Shown one piece after another: positions 1 through 30,455 of a stretch of 30,455 nt of DNA. Location: the IMG/VR virus record IMGVR_UViG_3300025131_000261, positions 1 to 30,455 of that record; one strand, written 5' to 3'. A program made the position numbers and the translations under genes. Each line of letters begins with the position of its first letter. The first letter of the stretch is position 1. Below the pieces are notes generated by a model. It had not been told where the DNA came from. It did no database searches and saw only the letters and a program-made list of their open reading frames with translations. The stretch comes from a virus.

Positions 1-1
1 G

Positions 2-289
2 GTGGAATACTGGGAGAACTCACATACGGAAAAGAGATACATTCCACATCCTGCTACTTTCTTAAATCAAGAGAGGTTTATGGACACTCCTGATGAACTA
101 GAGTCAGAGGTTGTTTATTCTTTAGACAGCACAGGAAACTTTTACATAGGATATTGTTCTAATCCAAAATGTAAACAGAGTGCGTTCTATCGAAAAGAAG
201 AACTTTCACAGGATTCAAAATGCTGCAGGGCCAAGATATTACCTAGCAGAGATGTAAATGAAATACAAGATATAAATGCAGAAGCATAA
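2..289 (+). CDS. Replication initiator-like protein, C-terminal part (5' partial)
   Basis: The frame is open from the left edge, so the GTG at position 2 is probably an internal valine and the gene starts outside the window. Residues 14-26 read IPHPATFLNQERF, which resembles the 'PHPxTWLNxxRW' motif near the C-terminus of many phage replication initiator/replisome organizer proteins (DnaD-like or winged-helix type). After this motif comes an extension with C52, C57, C74 and C75, spaced like a small zinc ribbon. The N-terminal DNA-binding half is absent. The gene starting at 30162 has exactly that missing half and may be the same gene. Function is inferred from one short motif, so it is moderately sure. 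An untranslated structured block follows. Confidence 0.6.
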   Translation: MEYWENSHTEKRYIPHPATFLNQERFMDTPDELESEVVYSLDSTGNFYIGYCSNPKCKQSAFYRKEELSQDSKCCRAKILPSRDVNEIQDINAEA

Positions 290-294
290 AAAAA

Positions 295-421
295 TAGAGC
301 AGTCCTACTTTCCCTATCCCCCAACGTCTAACCAACTTCAGGGGGTTTCTTGCATACTTAATGCACACTTACTTGCCGATTGTGGGGCTGCTTTAGTATT
401 AGGTAAACTGATGTTTCCTAA
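295..421 (+). ncRNA. Predicted structured RNA (three-way junction leader)
   Basis: The 176-base gap between the first two genes is full of complementary segments. Bases 295-308 pair with 382-395 (14 bp, three G-U). Inside lie a CCCCC/GGGGG hairpin (318-322 with 341-345) and TGCAT/ATGCA (351-355 with 361-365), giving a three-way junction. Just 3' is another hairpin, TTAGG-AAAC with GTTT-CCTAA (399-403, 405-408, 413-416, 417-421). This could be a cis-acting leader, a riboswitch-like element or a free small RNA. I do not recognise a known family. Pairings were read by eye; no folding or covariation was run. Confidence 0.5.
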
Positions 422-426
422 GTCGA

Positions 427-468
427 AAAGGAGAAGGGTGGGCTAATATAAGTCCACCTAGACCCATG
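427..468 (+). promoter_or_regulatory. Shine-Dalgarno separated from start codon by a hairpin
   Basis: The strong AAGGAG (428-433) is over 30 bases from the ATG at 466, too far for normal initiation. Between them GGTGGGCT (437-444) can pair with AGTCCACC (451-458) over a six-base loop. Folding this hairpin out leaves about 10 bases between the Shine-Dalgarno and the ATG. There is no other good ribosome binding site. The arrangement recalls phage T4 genes whose Shine-Dalgarno is brought to the start by an intervening hairpin. Confidence 0.5.
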
Positions 469-675
469 AGTAGAATTGATAAATTTAAAAACCAACGAGC
501 AGTAACCATCAGTCATCGATACAAGAAAAGATTGGTGGATGGTGGTAAGATATGTCCAACGTGCAACAAGGTCAGGGAATTAGATGATTATTACAGACAT
601 CAAACATATTGCAAGAAATGTAAAAGTAGGATGGGGAAGGAAAGAAGAAAGAAACAAAAATTTAAATTATGGTAA
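466..675 (+). CDS. Small basic zinc-finger protein
   Basis: A 69-residue basic protein with two CxxC pairs (C30-P-T-C33 and C49-K-K-C52) separated by an aromatic-rich segment. It looks like a four-cysteine zinc-binding fold, as in the N-terminal zinc knuckles of phage HNH-type nucleases, but no HNH catalytic residues follow. The C-terminus is a lysine/arginine tail (KERRKKQKFKLW), suggesting nucleic acid binding. It lies downstream of the structured leader and upstream of RusA, so a role in DNA transactions is plausible but not shown. Initiation probably depends on the hairpin-bridged Shine-Dalgarno at 428-433. Confidence 0.7.
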   Translation: MSRIDKFKNQRAVTISHRYKKRLVDGGKICPTCNKVRELDDYYRHQTYCKKCKSRMGKERRKKQKFKLW

Positions 676-684
676 GGATAGAGC

Positions 685-876
685 ATGGCTATACAAAAAA
701 AACATTATTGGACTGACAAGGACGGAAAAGACCACGTTATAGAGTATATGGACGACTATTATTTAATAAATTGTATTACTCTTATAGAAAATCTAGAAAA
801 AAACAAAGAAGGATACAGAGTACCTCCAGTTTATTATAGCTTAATAGATGAATATAACCAAAGAGTAAAAAAATAA
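685..876 (+). CDS. Hypothetical small protein
   Basis: A 63-residue protein rich in charged and aromatic residues, beginning MAIQKKHYWTDKDGKDHVIE and ending in a lysine-rich tail. I recognise no domain, signal peptide or membrane segment. It starts 9 bases after the previous stop, with an AAGGATAGAG ribosome-binding-like stretch, and ends directly before the RusA start codon, so it is co-transcribed and probably coupled with the resolvase. The function is unknown. Confidence 0.65.
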   Translation: MAIQKKHYWTDKDGKDHVIEYMDDYYLINCITLIENLEKNKEGYRVPPVYYSLIDEYNQRVKK

Positions 877-1287
877 TTGATTAAGTTCTTGGTCAAGACA
901 AGGCCCAAACCACAACAAAGACATCGTAGTAGAGGTGGAAGATTCCAGTATGATCCATCAGCGAAAGACAAGAAAGACTTTCTATTACAATGTAAGCAGT
1001 TCGCACCAAAGACACCTACCCTAAGAAATATAGAAATGGAATTGACATTCTGTTATAAACGACCAAAAAACCATTTCAGAAGTAAAAACAAAAAACTAAT
1101 ACTTAAAGAAGATTCCCCATTATATAAAGGCAGTAAAGCAGATATAGATAATTTGGCTAAATTCTATATAGATTCTATGAATGGAGTGTTCTATAAAGAC
1201 GATGCTCAGATAGTATCATTAAGTGCAAATAAAGTGTGGGGAAGTGAAGATTATATCTACTGTAAAATATCGTATACAAAAAAATAA
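877..1287 (+). CDS. rusA: RusA-like Holliday junction resolvase
   Basis: A 136-residue protein of the usual RusA size. The diagnostic region KADIDNLAKFYIDSMNGVFYKDDAQIV spans residues about 87-113. D89, D91 and D108/D109 match the acidic metal-binding triad of E. coli RusA. The N-terminus (TRPKPQQRHR) also fits the family. RusA enzymes are dimeric, metal-dependent endonucleases that cut four-way DNA junctions. In phages they commonly resolve recombination or replication intermediates before packaging, and this gene sits just ahead of the terminase genes. The start is a TTG immediately after the preceding TAA, so expression is probably coupled to the upstream gene. The family assignment is secure; the exact start is less so. 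Confidence 0.9.
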   Translation: MIKFLVKTRPKPQQRHRSRGGRFQYDPSAKDKKDFLLQCKQFAPKTPTLRNIEMELTFCYKRPKNHFRSKNKKLILKEDSPLYKGSKADIDNLAKFYIDSMNGVFYKDDAQIVSLSANKVWGSEDYIYCKISYTKK

Positions 1288-1323
1288 GTAAAATTAAAAG
1301 AATAATCTTTTTATATTTGGATT

Positions 1324-1701
1324 ATGGATAAGACCAAAAAAGACACAAAAGACAATGTACAGTCCGTACAAAAAACAGACAAAAAGAAAAAAGACTTCTT
1401 AGTTTCACTTAAAAAGAACAATGGAAATATATCAGAAGCGTGTATTGCTGCAAACATTGGAAGGCAAACATATTATGACTGGATTGAGAAAGATGAGGTA
1501 TTTAGACAGGACTCCAACGATGCACAAGAATCATTGATTGATTTAGTAGAATCTAAGTTGTTGGAGAACATAGAAGATAACGACAATACGTCTATAATTT
1601 TCTTTCTAAAGACTAAGGGTAAGAAAAGAGGGTACATTGAAAAGCAGGAAATCGAGCATATCCGTCCAATTTCAGAAATAGAGTTCGATGAAGGGTTTTA
1701 A
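1324..1701 (+). CDS. terS: Terminase small subunit
   Basis: A 125-residue protein with a lysine-rich N-terminus, then a helix-turn-helix-like segment (GNISEACIAANIGRQTYYDWIEKDEVF, residues about 37-63), typical of phage small terminase subunits. The later stretch NTSIIFFLKTKGKKRGYIEKQEIEH is also characteristic. The small subunit recognises the packaging site and loads the large subunit. The next gene is the large terminase, overlapping or abutting this one. No Shine-Dalgarno precedes the ATG. A TATATTTG sequence lies 5 bases upstream, so the gene may have its own promoter with a very short leader, though this is speculative. Confidence 0.87.
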   Translation: MDKTKKDTKDNVQSVQKTDKKKKDFLVSLKKNNGNISEACIAANIGRQTYYDWIEKDEVFRQDSNDAQESLIDLVESKLLENIEDNDNTSIIFFLKTKGKKRGYIEKQEIEHIRPISEIEFDEGF

Positions 1702-1702
1702 A

Positions 1703-2971
1703 ATGACACTTCATAAGGATAAGTATCTTCCCCACCAATGGGATTTCCTAACCACTAATACAAAACATCCAGAGAAAAAAATATCAGCACTTGTCGGTGG
1801 ATATGGCTGCGGGAAAACGTGGGTCTTTACAAGGAAATGTCTATTTAATTTGATAATGAAGAAGAACGATGAGGGGCTCTCAAATGGGTGGGTCATCTAT
1901 CCAACGTATGATCTAGCGAATGAATTGTTCGTTGAACCAATGAAAAACTTGCTAGAAGAAAACGGAATCCATTACACATACAATGTACAGAACCATAGAT
2001 TCATTACTCCTTATGGGAATATGAAGATATACCAGTTACAAAAGAGTGAGAACATTGTGGGCTCCTCTCTGAGTTGGATTGGATTTGATGAGTTCGATGT
2101 GGGTAATTATCGTCAGACAGATTTAGCATATAAAAAAGCATTAGGGCGTATGAGAGGTAGCGAGGATTGTGAGATATTTATCGTCACAAGTCCCGAAGGA
2201 TTCCACAAGACTTATGAGGTCATGGTAGAGGATTACAATGATAGTAAGTATTTAGTTCATGGAAAGACAACAGACAACCCATATCTTCCTAAAGGTTATA
2301 TTAAACTACTAGAAGATAACTACGATAAGACGATGCTGAAGGCATATCGTGATGGTCAATTCGTGAACATCTCGGCACTATCGGCATATTATTCTTTTGA
2401 TAGGAGCAAGAATGTACAAGACTGCGAATACGACAGAACACAGCCAATCCACTTGGGACTCGACTTTAACGTATCGCCCTTTGTTGGAGTTCTATCACAC
2501 ATTTACCACGACAAGCCCCAAATCAGGGTCTTTGACACAATCACTCTCGAACATCAGGGTAGTGGGGATTTGCTCACACAAAGGATGTGCGACACAATCA
2601 AAGCGAAATACCCACAAGCAAAGTGTATAATATATCCTGATGCGAGTTCTATGCAGAGGGCAACTAACGCTGCTCACTCAGATTTAGATATAATTAAAAT
2701 GAACGGATTTGAAGTCAAACTAAGGAAAACAAATCCTTTAGTAATTGACAGACTAAATAGTGTAAACGCTCAGTTGGAGGGAAATATGATTATCAGTCCT
2801 AAGTGTAAAGTATTAATTCAGGACTTAGAGAAAGTAACCAACAAGAGAGGTAGTAGAGTAGAACTGGATAAGAGTAACCATAATTTGACCCACGCTACGG
2901 ATGCGTTGGGGTATATGGTTCATTGGAACTTCCCCATTACCCGCCCAACATTAGGAGCAATAGAACGATGA
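1703..2971 (+). CDS. terL: Terminase large subunit (ATPase/nuclease)
   Basis: The packaging motor protein, about 422 residues. A Walker A motif GGYGCGKT lies near residues 32-39, and a Walker B-like segment IGFDEFD about 95 residues later. The C-terminal nuclease domain is visible as HLGLDFNVSPF, then YPDASS, then HATDALGYMVHW, carrying the acidic metal ligands of the RNase H-like fold. It pumps DNA into the prohead through the portal and cuts concatemers. I chose the ATG at 1703 because AAGGG lies about 7 bases upstream and the small-subunit stop is directly before it. An in-frame ATG at 1688 is the alternative. It overlaps the portal gene by ATGA. Confidence 0.93.
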   Translation: MTLHKDKYLPHQWDFLTTNTKHPEKKISALVGGYGCGKTWVFTRKCLFNLIMKKNDEGLSNGWVIYPTYDLANELFVEPMKNLLEENGIHYTYNVQNHRFITPYGNMKIYQLQKSENIVGSSLSWIGFDEFDVGNYRQTDLAYKKALGRMRGSEDCEIFIVTSPEGFHKTYEVMVEDYNDSKYLVHGKTTDNPYLPKGYIKLLEDNYDKTMLKAYRDGQFVNISALSAYYSFDRSKNVQDCEYDRTQPIHLGLDFNVSPFVGVLSHIYHDKPQIRVFDTITLEHQGSGDLLTQRMCDTIKAKYPQAKCIIYPDASSMQRATNAAHSDLDIIKMNGFEVKLRKTNPLVIDRLNSVNAQLEGNMIISPKCKVLIQDLEKVTNKRGSRVELDKSNHNLTHATDALGYMVHWNFPITRPTLGAIER

Positions 2972-4302
2972 TACCGAACATAGGAGCATTATTAGTCCAA
3001 CAGAGTAAGTATGATGCGCAGCAGAACGCTAAGAATCAATGGCGTAAAAGAAGATTAGTTGCTAGGGATTTCTACAATGGATATACAGAAAGCTACACCC
3101 ACAAATATTTTAGTAAGAAGCTATTATCAAAGATACCAGTAGCTAATGTGAACATCACTAAGCGTATCATAGATAGAATCAGTCTAGTGTATATGAAACC
3201 ACCCAAGAGAGAATACTCTAATGAGAACTTTCCTACGTTATTGCATGGGAAAGAATCTAAGATGCAGAGAGCAGAGAGGATGACGAATCTTTTAGAGCAT
3301 ATCCTAATAAAGCCTACTTGGAGAAATGGTGTTCTTGATTATGACCTTATAATGGACTTTGAAGCAATGTTCGGCGATGACCCATTAAGACCTATCGGAT
3401 ACACATACCCACTATCTATCAAGGCCTCTGTAATGGATGACACTCCTGAACTAACTGCTTACTGGGATGAAGAAAACACATTTGTATTTGATGCTAATGG
3501 TAAGATACAAGATGACCCTGATAACCCTGACCACATCAATCCGTATGGTGTCCTTCCATTTGTAGAATGTTTTAAGAATGGTAGACCTGAGTATTCCTAT
3601 ATAGACACATCTCCTGCTATGGATATTGTCGCTACAAACTTAGAAGTGAATGTCTCGGAATGTAATAGTAACGCTAACACCATGTTCCAGTCGTTTGGAT
3701 ATATGTATGTAAATGGAAGCCAAGTAGAGAAGGATTCACTAGAGGTTGGTCAGGATAAAATTTCGTTTCTCGGCATAGACGGGACTATGAACATCGTTTC
3801 TCCACCGAATACAGTAGATGCTCTCGCAAGTTCAATCGAACATTCCTATAAACTCCTCGCACAGAACTATCATCTAAATATCTCATTCGTAGAGGGCGCA
3901 GTAGCTCAATCAGGTGTCGCACTAAAATTGAGGAATCAAGAATTGACGGATTCTCGTATATATGATGTAATTCGGTGGAGAGAAGTTGAACATAAGATGT
4001 TTGAATTAGAATCAATCATATTAGGTGTTGAAGCAGGAATTAATGGAGGAGAGTTATTAAAGCTCGATTATAAAGAAGATGAGATAATATTATCACAACA
4101 GGAACAACGAGAAAATTGGGAGTGGTTATTATCACACGGATTAATAGACGAAAATGATATATTAATGGAAATGGACCCCGATAGATTCCCCGATAGAGAA
4201 ACAGCACAGGCATATCTCGATGAACGAGTAGCAAAAACAACTGAAGAAGAAACCACTCCTAATGGCTCGTTACTTGAAGCACTAACAAGACCAGTTGAAT
4301 AA
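2968..4302 (+). CDS. Portal protein
   Basis: A 444-residue protein directly after the large terminase, with the SPP1/gp6-type portal pattern: an N-terminal region with FYNGY, the stretch NITKRIIDRISLVYMKPPKR, and a long helical C-terminal half (SSIEHSYKLLAQNYHLNISFVEGAVAQSGVALKLRNQEL). Portals are dodecameric rings at one capsid vertex through which DNA passes and to which the terminase and neck bind. The start at 2968 (ATGA overlap with terL) is supported by AGGAG at 2953-2957; an upstream in-frame ATG at 2923 lies inside terL. The stop overlaps the next start as TAATG. Confidence 0.9.
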   Translation: MIPNIGALLVQQSKYDAQQNAKNQWRKRRLVARDFYNGYTESYTHKYFSKKLLSKIPVANVNITKRIIDRISLVYMKPPKREYSNENFPTLLHGKESKMQRAERMTNLLEHILIKPTWRNGVLDYDLIMDFEAMFGDDPLRPIGYTYPLSIKASVMDDTPELTAYWDEENTFVFDANGKIQDDPDNPDHINPYGVLPFVECFKNGRPEYSYIDTSPAMDIVATNLEVNVSECNSNANTMFQSFGYMYVNGSQVEKDSLEVGQDKISFLGIDGTMNIVSPPNTVDALASSIEHSYKLLAQNYHLNISFVEGAVAQSGVALKLRNQELTDSRIYDVIRWREVEHKMFELESIILGVEAGINGGELLKLDYKEDEIILSQQEQRENWEWLLSHGLIDENDILMEMDPDRFPDRETAQAYLDERVAKTTEEETTPNGSLLEALTRPVE

Positions 4303-5024
4303 TGGCGTTGAACGAAAACTATATAGATGGAATAGCAGAAACCATTGCGTTGCAAGTAGAAACATTGCAGAAAGAAATGGTGCGTGATTTACTTAAACTA
4401 TCAAAAAGCACAAGGTTCAAGTCTATTGATGAGTTCTTAATGGCTATGGATCAACTCGATTTGGAACAGATTGTGCTATTTAAGTCAAATAAAATACTTA
4501 GAGGGTATGAAGCTGCACATACACAAATCCTTTCCGATATGACCTTATATGCAGACATAACAGAAGAAACATTACAAACACTAACTAACTTCTCCACATC
4601 ATCTTTCACAGATAGTTTAGGAAATATGGGTGGGGTATTTAAGCGTGAACTAGTCAAAGGGGCGTTAGGTGGTGTAAGTGAACAAGGTATATTCCAAGCA
4701 ATACAAGCACAAGCGGGGCTATCCAATAGACAAATGCGAACACTCGTCACCACAGGCCTTACAGATTACTCTCGTAGTGTAGGTAAGATAATGATGGATA
4801 ACTCTCCACCAACTACAAGATTTAGATACATTGGTGCAATAGATGATAGGACAAGAGATTTATGTTTACAGATATGGGCTGCGGGAGAGATGACTAAGAC
4901 TCAGATAATAAACCAATTTGGTGCAGATGTCTTAATACGTGGGGGTGGATTTAATTGTAGACACGAGTGGGTAGAAATTGCAGTAGAGGATAAGAGCAAA
5001 GACTTCAGGAGAGGTGATGCTTAG
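4302..5024 (+). CDS. Head morphogenesis protein, Mu gpF-like
   Basis: A 240-residue protein with a helical N-terminal half. Its C-terminal domain carries the Mu F-like signature: RYIGAIDDRTRDLC, then RGGGFNCRHEW. These conserved Asp, Arg, Cys and His residues define the phage head morphogenesis domain (SPP1 gp7/Mu gpF). Members are minor head proteins bound near the portal and are thought to act in head assembly or DNA ejection. The position directly after the portal is the usual one. It starts by TAATG overlap with the portal gene. The size is typical of stand-alone versions. Confidence 0.88.
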   Translation: MALNENYIDGIAETIALQVETLQKEMVRDLLKLSKSTRFKSIDEFLMAMDQLDLEQIVLFKSNKILRGYEAAHTQILSDMTLYADITEETLQTLTNFSTSSFTDSLGNMGGVFKRELVKGALGGVSEQGIFQAIQAQAGLSNRQMRTLVTTGLTDYSRSVGKIMMDNSPPTTRFRYIGAIDDRTRDLCLQIWAAGEMTKTQIINQFGADVLIRGGGFNCRHEWVEIAVEDKSKDFRRGDA

Positions 5025-6408: not shown

Positions 6409-7377
6409 ATGTTTAAATTATTAAATAACATACAAGGATATGTTCAGAATGGTCCATTTGGTAATGACCTTATGGCTTTAGATGATGGTAATACAACTGT
6501 TACAACATCGGCTTCTATTGTAGGTGGTGTTGGTAAAGTATTAGGAGATGCTGTAATTGCATTTAACAAAGCAAACGTAGTATCTCCTCTTGTAACATCA
6601 AGGACTGGTGTTGTGGGTGCTAAGTCCGTTGAATTCGCTGATTGGAAAGTAGCAGCATCTAGTGATGTAGCTGCAACAAATGAATTTGCAGAAGCAACTG
6701 TTCAGCAAATTGATACTGCAGCAAGAACTGCAACACTTGCCGAACACGTTATTCAAATTGATATTGCTGATTTAGCAGAACAGTCTTACGGTGCAGGTGG
6801 AAGTATTGGTGGAAATGCAGGTGCAGTTATTGGTAATGCTTTAGCAGCGAAACTTGATAATGACTTGGTTGCTTTATTTGCAGCAGGATCATTAACTAAT
6901 GATGCTTGTGGTGCAGGAACAGACTTGGCTATATCTCACGTTTTTGATTGCTTGAGATTACTTCACGCCAATCAAGCTCCAGCTCCATTGAACTTAGTTC
7001 TTGGTCCACAACAAATGTGGGGTCCAGCAGGTTTAGTTCAGATAATGCAAGGACACTTAACTGCTCCAACTGCAGCATCTATGTATGGAGTTAGTGATCC
7101 AGCACAAGAAGTTGTAAACACAGGATTTGTTACTAAATTCGCAGGATTTGATATTTATGTAACTCCTGAGATCGCTGAAGATGGTAATAATGACGAAGCA
7201 GGTTGTGCTTTTAGTGCAGGTGCATTTGGCTTTGCAACAGGAGCTAAAGGTATAATGAGCATTGAAACTCAAAGAGATGCTTCAAAAAGAATGACTGAGT
7301 ATGTTGGAACTGGCGTATGGGGAGAAACAATGATTAAAGACCTCTATGCAGTAAGTTTAACATCAGATGTTTCATAA
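6409..7377 (+). CDS. Major capsid protein
   Basis: A 322-residue, Ala/Gly/Val-rich protein with unusually few charged residues for this genome, located directly after the scaffold module. Segments such as VVSPLVTSRTGVVGAKSVEFADWK, the D/I-rich strand AEHVIQIDIADLAEQ, and KLDNDLVALFAAGS fit HK97-fold capsid proteins of siphoviruses and podoviruses from environmental samples. HK97-fold subunits build the icosahedral shell. Two stop codons in tandem and a strong hairpin terminator follow, consistent with a highly expressed structural gene. AAAGGTAGG upstream provides the ribosome binding site. Confidence 0.88.
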   Translation: MFKLLNNIQGYVQNGPFGNDLMALDDGNTTVTTSASIVGGVGKVLGDAVIAFNKANVVSPLVTSRTGVVGAKSVEFADWKVAASSDVAATNEFAEATVQQIDTAARTATLAEHVIQIDIADLAEQSYGAGGSIGGNAGAVIGNALAAKLDNDLVALFAAGSLTNDACGAGTDLAISHVFDCLRLLHANQAPAPLNLVLGPQQMWGPAGLVQIMQGHLTAPTAASMYGVSDPAQEVVNTGFVTKFAGFDIYVTPEIAEDGNNDEAGCAFSAGAFGFATGAKGIMSIETQRDASKRMTEYVGTGVWGETMIKDLYAVSLTSDVS

Positions 7378-7390
7378 TAACTGATTAACT

Positions 7391-7418
7391 GAGGGGAGTG
7401 TAAAAGCTCCCCTCGTTT
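7391..7418 (+). terminator. Hairpin terminator after the capsid gene
   Basis: GAGGGGAG (7391-7398) pairs perfectly with CTCCCCTC (7407-7414) over an eight-base loop, followed by GTTTT. The short U-tract suggests partial termination that would lower expression of downstream genes relative to capsid. Confidence 0.75.
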
Positions 7419-7433
7419 TACAAGGAGAAAAAA

Positions 7434-7592
7434 ATGGATTATTATTTTAAAAAACCTGATGGAGAAATCTTCCAATTTATTAATGGTAAAATGGTATTGA
7501 ATAAATGTAAAGAAAAATTTATTGAGTGCGATAAAGATGGAAAAGAAATCAAAAAAGAAACAAAAAAAACAAAAAAAAAGGCAGGTAAATAA
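7434..7592 (+). CDS. Small lysine-rich hypothetical protein
   Basis: A 52-residue protein starting at ATG 7434 after a good AAGGAG site (7422-7426 region) and ending in a TAATG overlap with the next gene. The N-terminus (MDYYFKKPDGEIFQFINGK) looks like a short folded domain; the last 15 residues are nearly all Lys, Glu and Thr. The spacing and coupling support a real gene. I recognise no family. Position after the capsid allows a minor head role. Confidence 0.65.
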   Translation: MDYYFKKPDGEIFQFINGKMVLNKCKEKFIECDKDGKEIKKETKKTKKKAGK

Positions 7593-7795
7593 TGGCTATT
7601 GTTGCAAAATCATTTTTACATAATGACGATAAAATAGTAGGAGCATCAGATGATGATGATGGAACTCTACCTGAAGATATACAAGATTATGTTAGTGCTA
7701 ATATTGGAACAGCAGATATTACAACTCAATTAAATATTACTTGCACAAAGTTTGGTAACAAGATATTCACATTAGTAGTATTAGAAGCTAACTAA
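7592..7795 (+). CDS. Hypothetical protein
   Basis: A 67-residue acidic protein with a DDDDGTLPEDIQDY stretch in the middle and a hydrophobic C-terminal strand (KIFTLVVLEAN). It is coupled to the upstream small gene by TAATG. No domain or membrane segment is recognised. The next gene, an M15 peptidase, begins five bases after its stop. Confidence 0.6.
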   Translation: MAIVAKSFLHNDDKIVGASDDDDGTLPEDIQDYVSANIGTADITTQLNITCTKFGNKIFTLVVLEAN

Positions 7796-24359: not shown

Positions 24360-24368
24360 AATTTCCCT

Positions 24369-24439
24369 CCAACTAATCGGATTAAATCCGTTTGGTAGGT
24401 ATAAAAGAGCCTTATTCTTAATTGGATAGGGCTTTTTTT
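24369..24439 (+). terminator. Rho-independent terminator of the late/structural operon
   Basis: Two hairpins follow the last tail gene. The first has CCAA/TTGG outside CGGAT/ATCCG (24369-24395). The second has AGCCTTAT (24408-24415) paired with ATAGGGCT (24426-24433), followed directly by a run of seven T. The second is a textbook terminator and would insulate the downstream RNA and early genes from structural transcription. Confidence 0.88.
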
Positions 24440-24493
24440 ATAATTATTTCTCCTCGCAATGTTCAATTATATTAAAATAAATGACGATTTTAC

Positions 24494-24523
24494 TTGCAAA
24501 TGTGATTGTTTTAGTTTTAATAT
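24494..24523 (+). promoter_or_regulatory. Possible promoter for the structured RNA
   Basis: TTGCAA (24494-24499) and TAATAT (24518-24523) are separated by 18 bases in a sigma70-like arrangement, in the gap between the terminator and the folded RNA. Both are imperfect matches in AT-rich sequence, so this is only a candidate. Some promoter is needed here, because the upstream terminator is strong. Confidence 0.25.
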
Positions 24524-24540
24524 TAGTCAAGTTTAGATAA

Positions 24541-24549
24541 TGGTTAGAC
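24541..24549 (+). repeat. Short direct repeat TGGTTAGAC (first copy)
   Basis: TGGTTAGAC occurs at 24541-24549 and again at 24949-24957, flanking the structured RNA. GGTTAGACAA also occurs at 24950-24959 and 25268-25277. It may be a protein-binding or processing signal, or chance. Confidence 0.3.
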
Positions 24550-24568
24550 GATTTTTAAAATAAATAGG

Positions 24569-24941
24569 TTAAGGCACTTGGTAAGAAAACCGAAATAGTG
24601 AAATTCCTTAATATCAGATGGGAGCAAAAAATTAAAAGAAGTGTTGTAGGAATTGCTTTAATAGGTAATGCTAAGTGAAGACAATGTTAGTAGATTAAGT
24701 TCGAACCTCATCTTTAAAGGGTTGTTAGTAAATTAAATTAGAAAGCAAAACCACTAGAGCCACCGAGCGAGAATGTTCTACAACACCTCTAAAAAATAGA
24801 ATTAAAATTGGGGATATGAAATATTTGATGTCTTAGCTTTTTATTTTTAATAGAGGTAGCAATATCTTATTAGTAAAAATAAATCCGTAACTGGTGGAGG
24901 CAGAGTTTTTTATCCCCATTGCAAATTAAAATGCTCCCATC
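24569..24941 (+). ncRNA. Large structured non-coding RNA, predicted multi-helix fold with pseudoknot
   Basis: About 375 bases with no protein gene but many long complementary segments. Helix 1: TTAAGG (24569-24574) with CCTTAA (24606-24611), enclosing CACT/AGTG and GGT/ACC. A closing helix GATGGGAGC (24617-24625) with GCTCCCATC (24933-24941) holds two domains. Domain A: GTGTTGTAG (24641-24649) with CTACAACAC (24778-24786), and inside it TTGCTTT (24653-24659) with AAAGCAA (24742-24748). Domain B: TGGGGATA (24809-24816) with TATCCCCA (24911-24918), and inside it a 10-bp stem (24840-24849 with 24874-24883). CCACTAG (24751-24757) can pair with CTGGTGG (24891-24897), a pseudoknot between domains. 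Size and phage context recall ornate RNAs such as GOLLD and ROOL, but I cannot match it to either. Its function is unknown. Confidence 0.7.
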
Positions 24942-24982
24942 AAAAATTTGGTTAGACAAAAACAAAACAAGGAGTAAGTGAA

Positions 24983-25183
24983 ATGAAATGCTTTAAATGT
25001 AAAAATGAAAGTCCTGATAATAATATTATTGGCGATGGGAATCACGAATCAATTAAGGGTAAACATTATTGCGAGAAACATTATTGGACACCTAGTAGAA
25101 AAGCTGATTTAAAAAAGAATAGTGTTTCGTTGGTAGAATATATTAACAATCCAAATATCTTTAAAGACTGGGGTATTAAATAA
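24983..25183 (+). CDS. Small zinc-binding protein
   Basis: A 66-residue protein with C3-F-K-C6 at the N-terminus and H28-Y-C30-E-K-H33 later, consistent with one zinc site (treble-clef-like CxxC...CxxH). It is the first gene after the structured RNA, with an AAGGAG ribosome site, and its stop overlaps the next start as TAATG. It is a typical small early phage protein; the role is unknown. Confidence 0.65.
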   Translation: MKCFKCKNESPDNNIIGDGNHESIKGKHYCEKHYWTPSRKADLKKNSVSLVEYINNPNIFKDWGIK

Positions 25184-25320
25184 TGGAAACCCATAAATAC
25201 ATCAGAGGTGTTCAATGTGATTCTCCAAGCTGTTATGCTTGTGGTAAGCAACATAAGAATTGTAATCGGTTAGACAAGTTAGATAAACAACAAAAAGGAG
25301 AGCAAGTAAATGATAAATAA
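25183..25320 (+). CDS. Very small cysteine-rich protein
   Basis: A 45-residue ORF starting in TAATG overlap with the zinc protein upstream and overlapping the next gene by 11 bases. C12, C17, C20 and C27 (CDSPSCYACGKQHKNC) suggest a small metal-binding knuckle. The hydrophilic C-terminus (NRLDKLDKQQKGEQVNDK) may be coding mainly because the next ribosome site lies in it. It is probably real given the coupling and conserved-looking cysteine spacing. Confidence 0.55.
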   Translation: METHKYIRGVQCDSPSCYACGKQHKNCNRLDKLDKQQKGEQVNDK

Positions 25321-29243: not shown

Positions 29244-30097
29244 ATGTTTTAAGTTTATTTAATGGAATGTCCACAGGACATACAGCTTTAGATAATGTTG
29301 GTATTAAAGTTGATAAATACTATTCATCTGAAATTAAACCTGCTGCAATAAAACTTACTCAACATCATTATCCTGATACTATTCAAGTGGGAGATGTTAC
29401 TAAATGGAAAGAATGGGATATAGAGTGGGCTAAGATTGATTTGGTTTTAAGTGGTAGTCCGTGTCAGGATTTATCTATTGCAAGTAAAAATAGAGTAGGA
29501 TTAGAGGGTAGTCGTAGTAGTTTGTTTTGGGTGTTTGTGGATATTCTTAATCATATAAAAGACCTCAATCCGAATGTTTTGTTTTTACAAGAGAATGTTG
29601 GTTCTGCTAATAGAAAAGATGTCGGCATTATGTCAAGAGCCTTAGGTGTATATCCCGCTAGGCTTAATTCATCACTTGTAACAGCACAGCTGCGAGATAG
29701 ATATTATTGGACAAATATTAGAACTACAAAAGACGGATTATTTGGAGATATTGTTGTAGATATACCACAGCCAAAAGATAGGAAGATATTGTTTGAAGAT
29801 ATAATAACCAGCGGAATAGTTAAGGTTGATAAACATTCTTGTTTAAACACAGGAAGTGGGCGTGGTGGTAGTCAAGATAGTCTAATCCACAGAAACAACA
29901 CAACTGGAATGATTACTTTAATATATGAAAACAAAACTCCTTGTGTTAGGACTGTAAATAAGATTGAAATGTGTAGGCTGCAGGGTTTTAAAGATAATTG
30001 GTGTGATATATTGACAAGAACACAAGCAGGAAGTTTATTAGGAGATGGGTGGACATTACCAGTAATAGAACATATTTTCAGTTACATAGAAAAGTAG
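29240..30097 (+). CDS. DNA (cytosine-5) methyltransferase
   Basis: A 285-residue protein. Motif I is LSLFNGMSTGHTAL (4-17), which binds S-adenosylmethionine. Motif IV SGSPCQDLS has the catalytic C75 in the PCQ core. ENV follows near residue 118 (motif VI), QLRDRYYWTNI near 150 (motif VIII), and the C-terminal GDGWTLPVIEHIF matches motif X. All key elements are present, so it is probably active. The target recognition domain is short, and the protein is smaller than most restriction methyltransferases, as in solitary phage enzymes; no restriction gene is adjacent. It could protect phage DNA from host restriction or serve as a step in base modification with the radical SAM gene upstream. AAGGAG precedes the ATG. 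Confidence 0.9.
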   Translation: MNVLSLFNGMSTGHTALDNVGIKVDKYYSSEIKPAAIKLTQHHYPDTIQVGDVTKWKEWDIEWAKIDLVLSGSPCQDLSIASKNRVGLEGSRSSLFWVFVDILNHIKDLNPNVLFLQENVGSANRKDVGIMSRALGVYPARLNSSLVTAQLRDRYYWTNIRTTKDGLFGDIVVDIPQPKDRKILFEDIITSGIVKVDKHSCLNTGSGRGGSQDSLIHRNNTTGMITLIYENKTPCVRTVNKIEMCRLQGFKDNWCDILTRTQAGSLLGDGWTLPVIEHIFSYIEK

Positions 30098-30112
30098 TGG
30101 TTGAAATAAATA

Positions 30113-30140
30113 GCTGAATTAATTAAGTTATTAGTTCGGC
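30113..30140 (+). promoter_or_regulatory. Long perfect hairpin before the replication gene
   Basis: GCTGAATTAAT (30113-30123) pairs fully with ATTAGTTCGGC (30130-30140), 11 bp including two G-U, over a six-base loop. No T-run follows, so it is not an ordinary terminator. It lies just before the AGGAG of the next gene and may be an RNA processing or translational control element. Confidence 0.5.
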
Positions 30141-30161
30141 AGAAAGGAGTAAGTAAGTGTT

Positions 30162-30455
30162 ATGGCTAGAAATAGAATATTAAAAAAAGAGTTTTGGTGT
30201 GATGAGAAGATTATTGAATTATTATACATTGAACGATTATTATTCTTAGGAATGACCAACTTTGCAGATGATAAGGGGATTCAGTTATACTCTCCAAAGG
30301 GATTAAAGGCAAAGATATTTCCTGCTGACGATTTAAGTGCAAATGCGATTGAAAATGGACTAACTAAAATGGAAGAACTAGGGTTAATTGAGTTTGGTAA
30401 TGATAATACATTGATTAGGATCAAGAATTGGGATTTACATCAGAAAATCAATAGG
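30162..30455 (+). CDS. Phage replication initiator, N-terminal part (3' partial)
   Basis: An open frame of 98 codons running off the right edge. It begins MARNRILKKEFWCDEKIIELLYIERLLFLGMTNFADDKGIQLYSPKGLKAKIFPADDLSANAIENGLTKMEELGLIEF and ends WDLHQKINR. This is the N-terminal winged-helix-like domain common to phage replication initiation/replisome organizer proteins ('RIlkkxFfxdexia...LFxGLxxxaDdxGxxxxxPkxlkaxifP'). Such proteins bind the origin and load the helicase. AGGAG lies about 12 bases upstream, rather long. The missing C-terminal half may be the gene at the left edge, which has the matching IPHPATFLNQERF motif. Confidence 0.75.
   Translation, partial: MARNRILKKEFWCDEKIIELLYIERLLFLGMTNFADDKGIQLYSPKGLKAKIFPADDLSANAIENGLTKMEELGLIEFGNDNTLIRIKNWDLHQKINR

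Follow-up and report, generated by a model that had tools for sequence, protein, structure and literature searches.

It is proposed that the phage analysed here has acquired, in the accessory slot with which its early genes begin, a discrete and structured, multi-branched noncoding RNA of ~375-400 nt that acts in the cell. We give this reading a probability of roughly 0.45; it is the simplest one, since a structured RNA has probably been gained in an accessory slot. As far as its sequence can tell, the element matches no known RNA family.

The phage and its early gene slot

The window (the whole stretch of DNA analysed) corresponds to one IMG/VR virus record and is 30,455 bases long. It encodes a terminase, a portal, a major head protein and tail genes; beyond 24.4 kb comes an early block whose products include winged-helix, radical-SAM-like and C5-methylase proteins, and a RusA-like protein is encoded near the left end of the window. 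A single contig (L003) bridges the two ends of the window by 269 bases, which makes a circular or circularly permuted genome of ~30.7 kb probable: L003 1-674 corresponds to window 29782-30455, 675-943 are the linking bases, and 944-4803 corresponds to window 1-3860. The window contig is thus probably nearly complete. Related phages were gathered from IMG/VR with the terminase, tail and early proteins. From the IMG samples that gave these relatives, the phage is presumably marine; a search of GTDB genomes for terminase relatives, which might have indicated a host, returned none.

Twelve related phage loci keep the order of tail gene, TTCCCTCCRAC motif, terminator, ~100 nt and first early gene. 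In the window this region is laid out as follows.

24403-24438 (+), late intrinsic terminator (terminator scan), at the same position in 12 relatives
24550-24948 (+), structured core and probably acquired insert, 399 bp between direct repeats, marked by its absence from L012 and all other relatives and by helix statistics
24983-25183 (+), first early gene, 66 aa, with AAGGAG in front and an RBS stretch that matches L012

The first early ORF varies in length and content among the window, L006, L010-L013, L017, L023, L025, L035 and L041, which are otherwise syntenic, as expected for an accessory gene slot. In phages, such slots often hold genes acting on the host. The gap between the late terminator and this gene (24439-24982) contains no plausible gene. 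It had been described as free of ORFs from the sequence alone, and the insert indeed lacks any ORF of at least 40 aa; among the frames that run from start to stop and touch it, the longest have 20-31 aa, in addition to a 39-aa minus-strand frame across its right edge. ARAGORN found neither a tRNA nor a tmRNA in the window.

Predicted helices of the RNA

The RNA would fold into a two-domain body closed by the helix P1, with a separate 5' hairpin (P0) in front of it. The predicted elements are the following.

24568-24612 (+), P0, 5' hairpin, separate, in front of P1, mean pair probability 0.90-0.97
24617-24626 (+), P1 closing helix, 5' strand GATGGGAGCA, partner 24932-24941, probability 0.98
24932-24941 (+), P1 closing helix, 3' strand TGCTCCCATC, partner 24617-24626
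24637-24651 (+), P2, 5' strand, partner 24776-24790, probability 0.85-0.97
24776-24790 (+), P2, 3' strand, partner 24637-24651
24653-24659 (+), P3 (alternative), 5' strand TTGCTTT, perfect 7 bp with 24742-24748, extending P2, outside the MFE structure
24742-24748 (+), P3 (alternative), 3' strand AAAGCAA, partner 24653-24659
24809-24816 (+), P4, 5' strand, 8 bp with 24911-24918, probability 0.96
24911-24918 (+), P4, 3' strand, partner 24809-24816
24840-24883 (+), P5 (24840-24849/24874-24883) with the apical hairpin P6 (24853-24868), probability 0.90-0.93
24751-24757 (+), CCACUAG, possible pseudoknot with CUGGUGG at 24891-24897, 7 bp, -8.3 kcal/mol

P1 (GAUGGGAGCA/UGCUCCCAUC, 24617-24626/24932-24941) has 10 bp and closes a span of 325 nt, in agreement with the more than 300 bases claimed earlier for the closing helix. 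Inside it lie two domains, one made of P2 with the alternative P3, the other of P4 with P5 and P6. Within P2, 24641-24651/24776-24786 forms 11 bp with one G-U, around a Watson-Crick core of 9 bp; the perfect 7-bp pair of P3 competes with the MFE structure, and P5 consists of 10 bp of A-U pairs only. All five complementary pairs named in the sequence-only reading are present and nested, and its separate 5' hairpin is present too. The CCACUAG/CUGGUGG pseudoknot is not significant, an equally good pairing being reached by 9% of shuffles.

Transcription and a possible leader role

The RNA is preceded by a promoter-like stretch.

24494-24523 (+), candidate early promoter TTGCAA-18 nt-TAATAT, predicted start ~24530

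Its hexamers agree with the consensus at 8 of 12 positions and score below the cut-off of the promoter scan, for which reason it is treated as a candidate. It falls within 24361-24524, which is noncoding and yet 89% identical in L012. A promoter of the element's own across the left end of the insert (TTTAGA-18-TAAAAT, 24532-24561) was rejected, as it is equally frequent in shuffles. The terminator scan found no terminator or processing site fixing the 3' end of the RNA.

It had been suggested that the RNA is an independent transcript, insulated by a terminator. This holds for the upstream side, where the late terminator lies, but not for the downstream side. Because a conserved promoter-like stretch precedes the RNA, no terminator follows it and the RBS of the first early gene comes next, it probably serves as the early operon's leader, either processed or cis-acting; an independent transcript would need processing on the 3' side of the RNA. 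The cis-acting form, a structured 5' leader that would regulate elongation, stability or translation of the early mRNA while remaining part of it, fits both the missing terminator and the conserved upstream stretch, as well as an RBS stretch that runs on directly from the right repeat. We nevertheless consider it rather unlikely, given that the same operon has a leader of ~100 nt in 12 of 12 relatives, so that such control is not needed in the family, and that no riboswitch or leader family in Rfam was matched.

Probable acquisition of the element

The insert is flanked by two direct repeats.

24541-24549 (+), direct repeat TGGTTAGAC, left copy
24949-24957 (+), direct repeat TGGTTAGAC, right copy, matched by TGGTTAGGC at the L012 empty site

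The closest relatives, L012 and the overlapping locus L008, have a near-clean empty site: window 24361-24524 (at the 89% given above) and 24949-24985 (at 87%) align with only 4 bases between them. The related loci lack the entire element, as opposed to carrying an unpaired version of it. Since this empty site is found in the closest relatives and the same slot is short in 12 of them (96-172 nt from terminator to ATG, against 543 nt in the window), the element appears to have been acquired; ~420 bases were probably gained in the window phage, and independent loss in every other lineage seen is less likely.

The empty site of L012 carries TGGTTAGGC once, and the 9-bp direct repeat TGGTTAGAC may be a target duplication, though not a proven one, because the bases between the promoter and the left TGGTTAGAC differ from those of L012 (left flank ~16 nt versus 4 nt). 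With TGGTTAGAC at both ends and a near-clean empty site, the insert could be seen as a non-autonomous (MITE-like) or intron-like mobile element, with a 9-bp target duplication and a structure serving its own mobility. We regard this as improbable: terminal inverted repeats are at best ~6 bp and A/T-rich, no further copy occurs in the window, the related phages or the phage, plasmid and E. coli collections, Rfam gives no group I or II intron match, and the unlike left flank leaves the duplication unproven.

The sequence GGTTAGAC has five copies against 0.57 expected, at window 24542, 24950 and 25268 (+) and at 326 and 26020 (-). The copy at 25268 sits in a short early reading frame, and its L010 counterpart encodes NRLDELDKQ.

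Structure against chance

Measured against dinucleotide shuffles, the MFE z-score of the insert is -3.0 to -3.4 on the plus strand and -1.8 to -2.0 on the minus strand, the plus strand folding ~16 kcal/mol better. In a coarse scan of the window the insert ranks second of 154 stretches by this z-score. The sole stretch below it, 7201-7600 (+; z -4.0), contains a GC-rich hairpin that follows the gene for the major head protein.

For long-range architecture we used a helix score, the sum over the best three mutually compatible helices with a span of >90 nt. With G-U pairs allowed, the insert scores -40.5 kcal/mol, a value reached by 0 of 1000 dinucleotide shuffles (mean -21.7, best -36.4), and its region comes first of 604 positions along the whole window, where the two strands give similar scores, Watson-Crick helices being strand-symmetric. 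When only Watson-Crick pairs are counted, it scores -38.5 kcal/mol (z -6.5), first of ~3,950 stretches drawn from the window together with 30 related loci, which partly overlap; the next best has z -3.1. When G-U pairs are allowed, coding stretches of L012 and L013 likewise reach z -6.5 to -6.8. The similar architecture found at L012 8601-9100 and L013 8501 was rejected, as it belongs to a conserved 134-aa gene and its signal is lost with Watson-Crick pairs only; since a coding gene scores high with G-U pairs, the Watson-Crick-only control was relied on as the fair one. The region had been picked in the sequence-only reading for its structured look, a selection for which the window-wide ranking largely corrects.

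The organisation was said to exceed what an AT-rich spacer would give, and the shuffles and the Watson-Crick control bear this out. A relic or chance origin, in which an acquired spacer or dead gene pairs by accident, would suit a single, AT-rich copy in a region chosen for looking structured, but it is improbable when none of the 1000 shuffles reaches the score, none of the ~3,950 control stretches comes close with Watson-Crick pairs, and the helices nest compatibly.

Proposed role of the RNA

Returning to the discrete acquired RNA, we propose that it would be transcribed at the onset of infection, presumably as the plus strand, from the early promoter just upstream. Folded as above, it would end up as a discrete stable RNA, either as it stands or after excision, and would act in trans in the cell, like the accessory early proteins that probably act on the host. 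A role in the host or in anti-defence is a guess from the slot. Against the proposal stand the single copy known, a 3' end set by neither a terminator nor a processing site, the lack of significance of the long-range pseudoknot, and a lineage-specific presence that a neutral insertion would equally show. It is a bolder and doubtful step to see the element as a large phage RNA of a new class, gained as an accessory early element, which would target the host as a separate RNA when infection begins; its target might be, for instance, one of the host's RNA-binding proteins or a defence system.

A conserved motif at the late 3' end

A short motif upstream of the gap is shared with the relatives.

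24363-24373 (+), TTCCCTCCAAC, conserved noncoding motif that follows the tail-gene stop and precedes the late terminator, outside the RNA; TTCCCTCCRAC in all 13 aligned phages

Loci with this 11-nt motif are the window, L006, L010-L013, L017, L022, L023, L025, L031, L032, L035 and L041. In ~30 loci the terminase gene contains the complement of this motif, GTTGGAGGGAA (window 2773-2783, minus strand), with one G-U where R is G. The GTTGGAGGGAA site is invariant at the nucleotide level in the terminase genes of these ~30 loci; its codons TTG GAG GGA are common to the whole set of terminases, whose identity to that of the window is 60-73%, and of the 166 amino-acid columns that are invariant in the terminase alignment, only 16 keep the third base. 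The GTTGGAGGGAA site is missing from more distant terminases (L042, L045-L049), whose available sequence did not show the motif at any other place either. The pattern suggests base pairing of the late 3' end with the terminase message, or one protein binding both DNA sites.

A second 11-nt terminase stretch, TATCCTGATGC (alignment column 948), which codes for YPDA, has a nucleotide conservation equal to that of the motif site. Within the region of window 24360-24441, a further short segment that resembles a hairpin and varies in sequence lies between motif and terminator in most relatives. Motif, hairpin and terminator look like a 3'-UTR-derived small RNA; RNAalifold on the alignment of this region confirmed the terminator stem alone.

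Comparison with known systems

At the gathering threshold, Rfam gives nothing for the window, and up to E 10 the insert gives only implausible matches far under their thresholds (4227 families). The earlier reading could assign the RNA to neither GOLLD nor ROOL, and the Rfam check agrees, neither of them nor any of the 4227 families being matched. Homologs were sought by exact 22-mers in IMG/VR, by blastn against phages, plasmids and E. coli, with short sub-blocks of the insert, by a 21-mer in GTDB genomes, and in the contigs of relatives; only chance matches of 11-52 nt were obtained, and one copy of the element is known from these collections. The searches are sequence-based, and a homolog alike in structure alone would escape them.

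ROOL RNAs are large, multi-branched and noncoding, are encoded by phages or prophages and have no known function (PMC12286853); GOLLD is a large ornate phage RNA, found in marine samples among others (PMC12286853). The insert resembles ROOL in being large, multi-branched, noncoding and phage-borne, but it has ~400 nt as compared with 659 nt in the solved ROOL example, sits in the putative early-operon leader, has no tRNA in its window and gives no match to the ROOL covariance model in Rfam, at the gathering threshold or up to E 10. With GOLLD it shares the character of a large phage RNA, whereas many GOLLD RNAs exceed 800 nt and lie near tRNAs (frequently, not strictly); the insert has ~400 nt, no tRNA or tmRNA occurs in the window, and the GOLLD covariance model is not matched.

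OLE, HEARO (associated with IscB) and raiA are large structured bacterial RNAs, and HEARO is tied to mobile elements. The insert matches none of their Rfam covariance models, and no IscB-like gene was noticed beside it. Group I and II introns are, like the insert, structured RNA inserts with an empty site in relatives; however, no Rfam match to an intron, and with it no catalytic core, was found up to E 10, the insert lies in a putative leader outside any gene, and introns would not be expected to have direct repeats at their ends.

ROOL assembles into an RNA-only multimeric cage. For ROOL and GOLLD the structure is known but the function is not; a comparable RNA in an accessory slot, set against sister phages in which the site is empty, would allow a with/without comparison of the benefit of the RNA to the phage.
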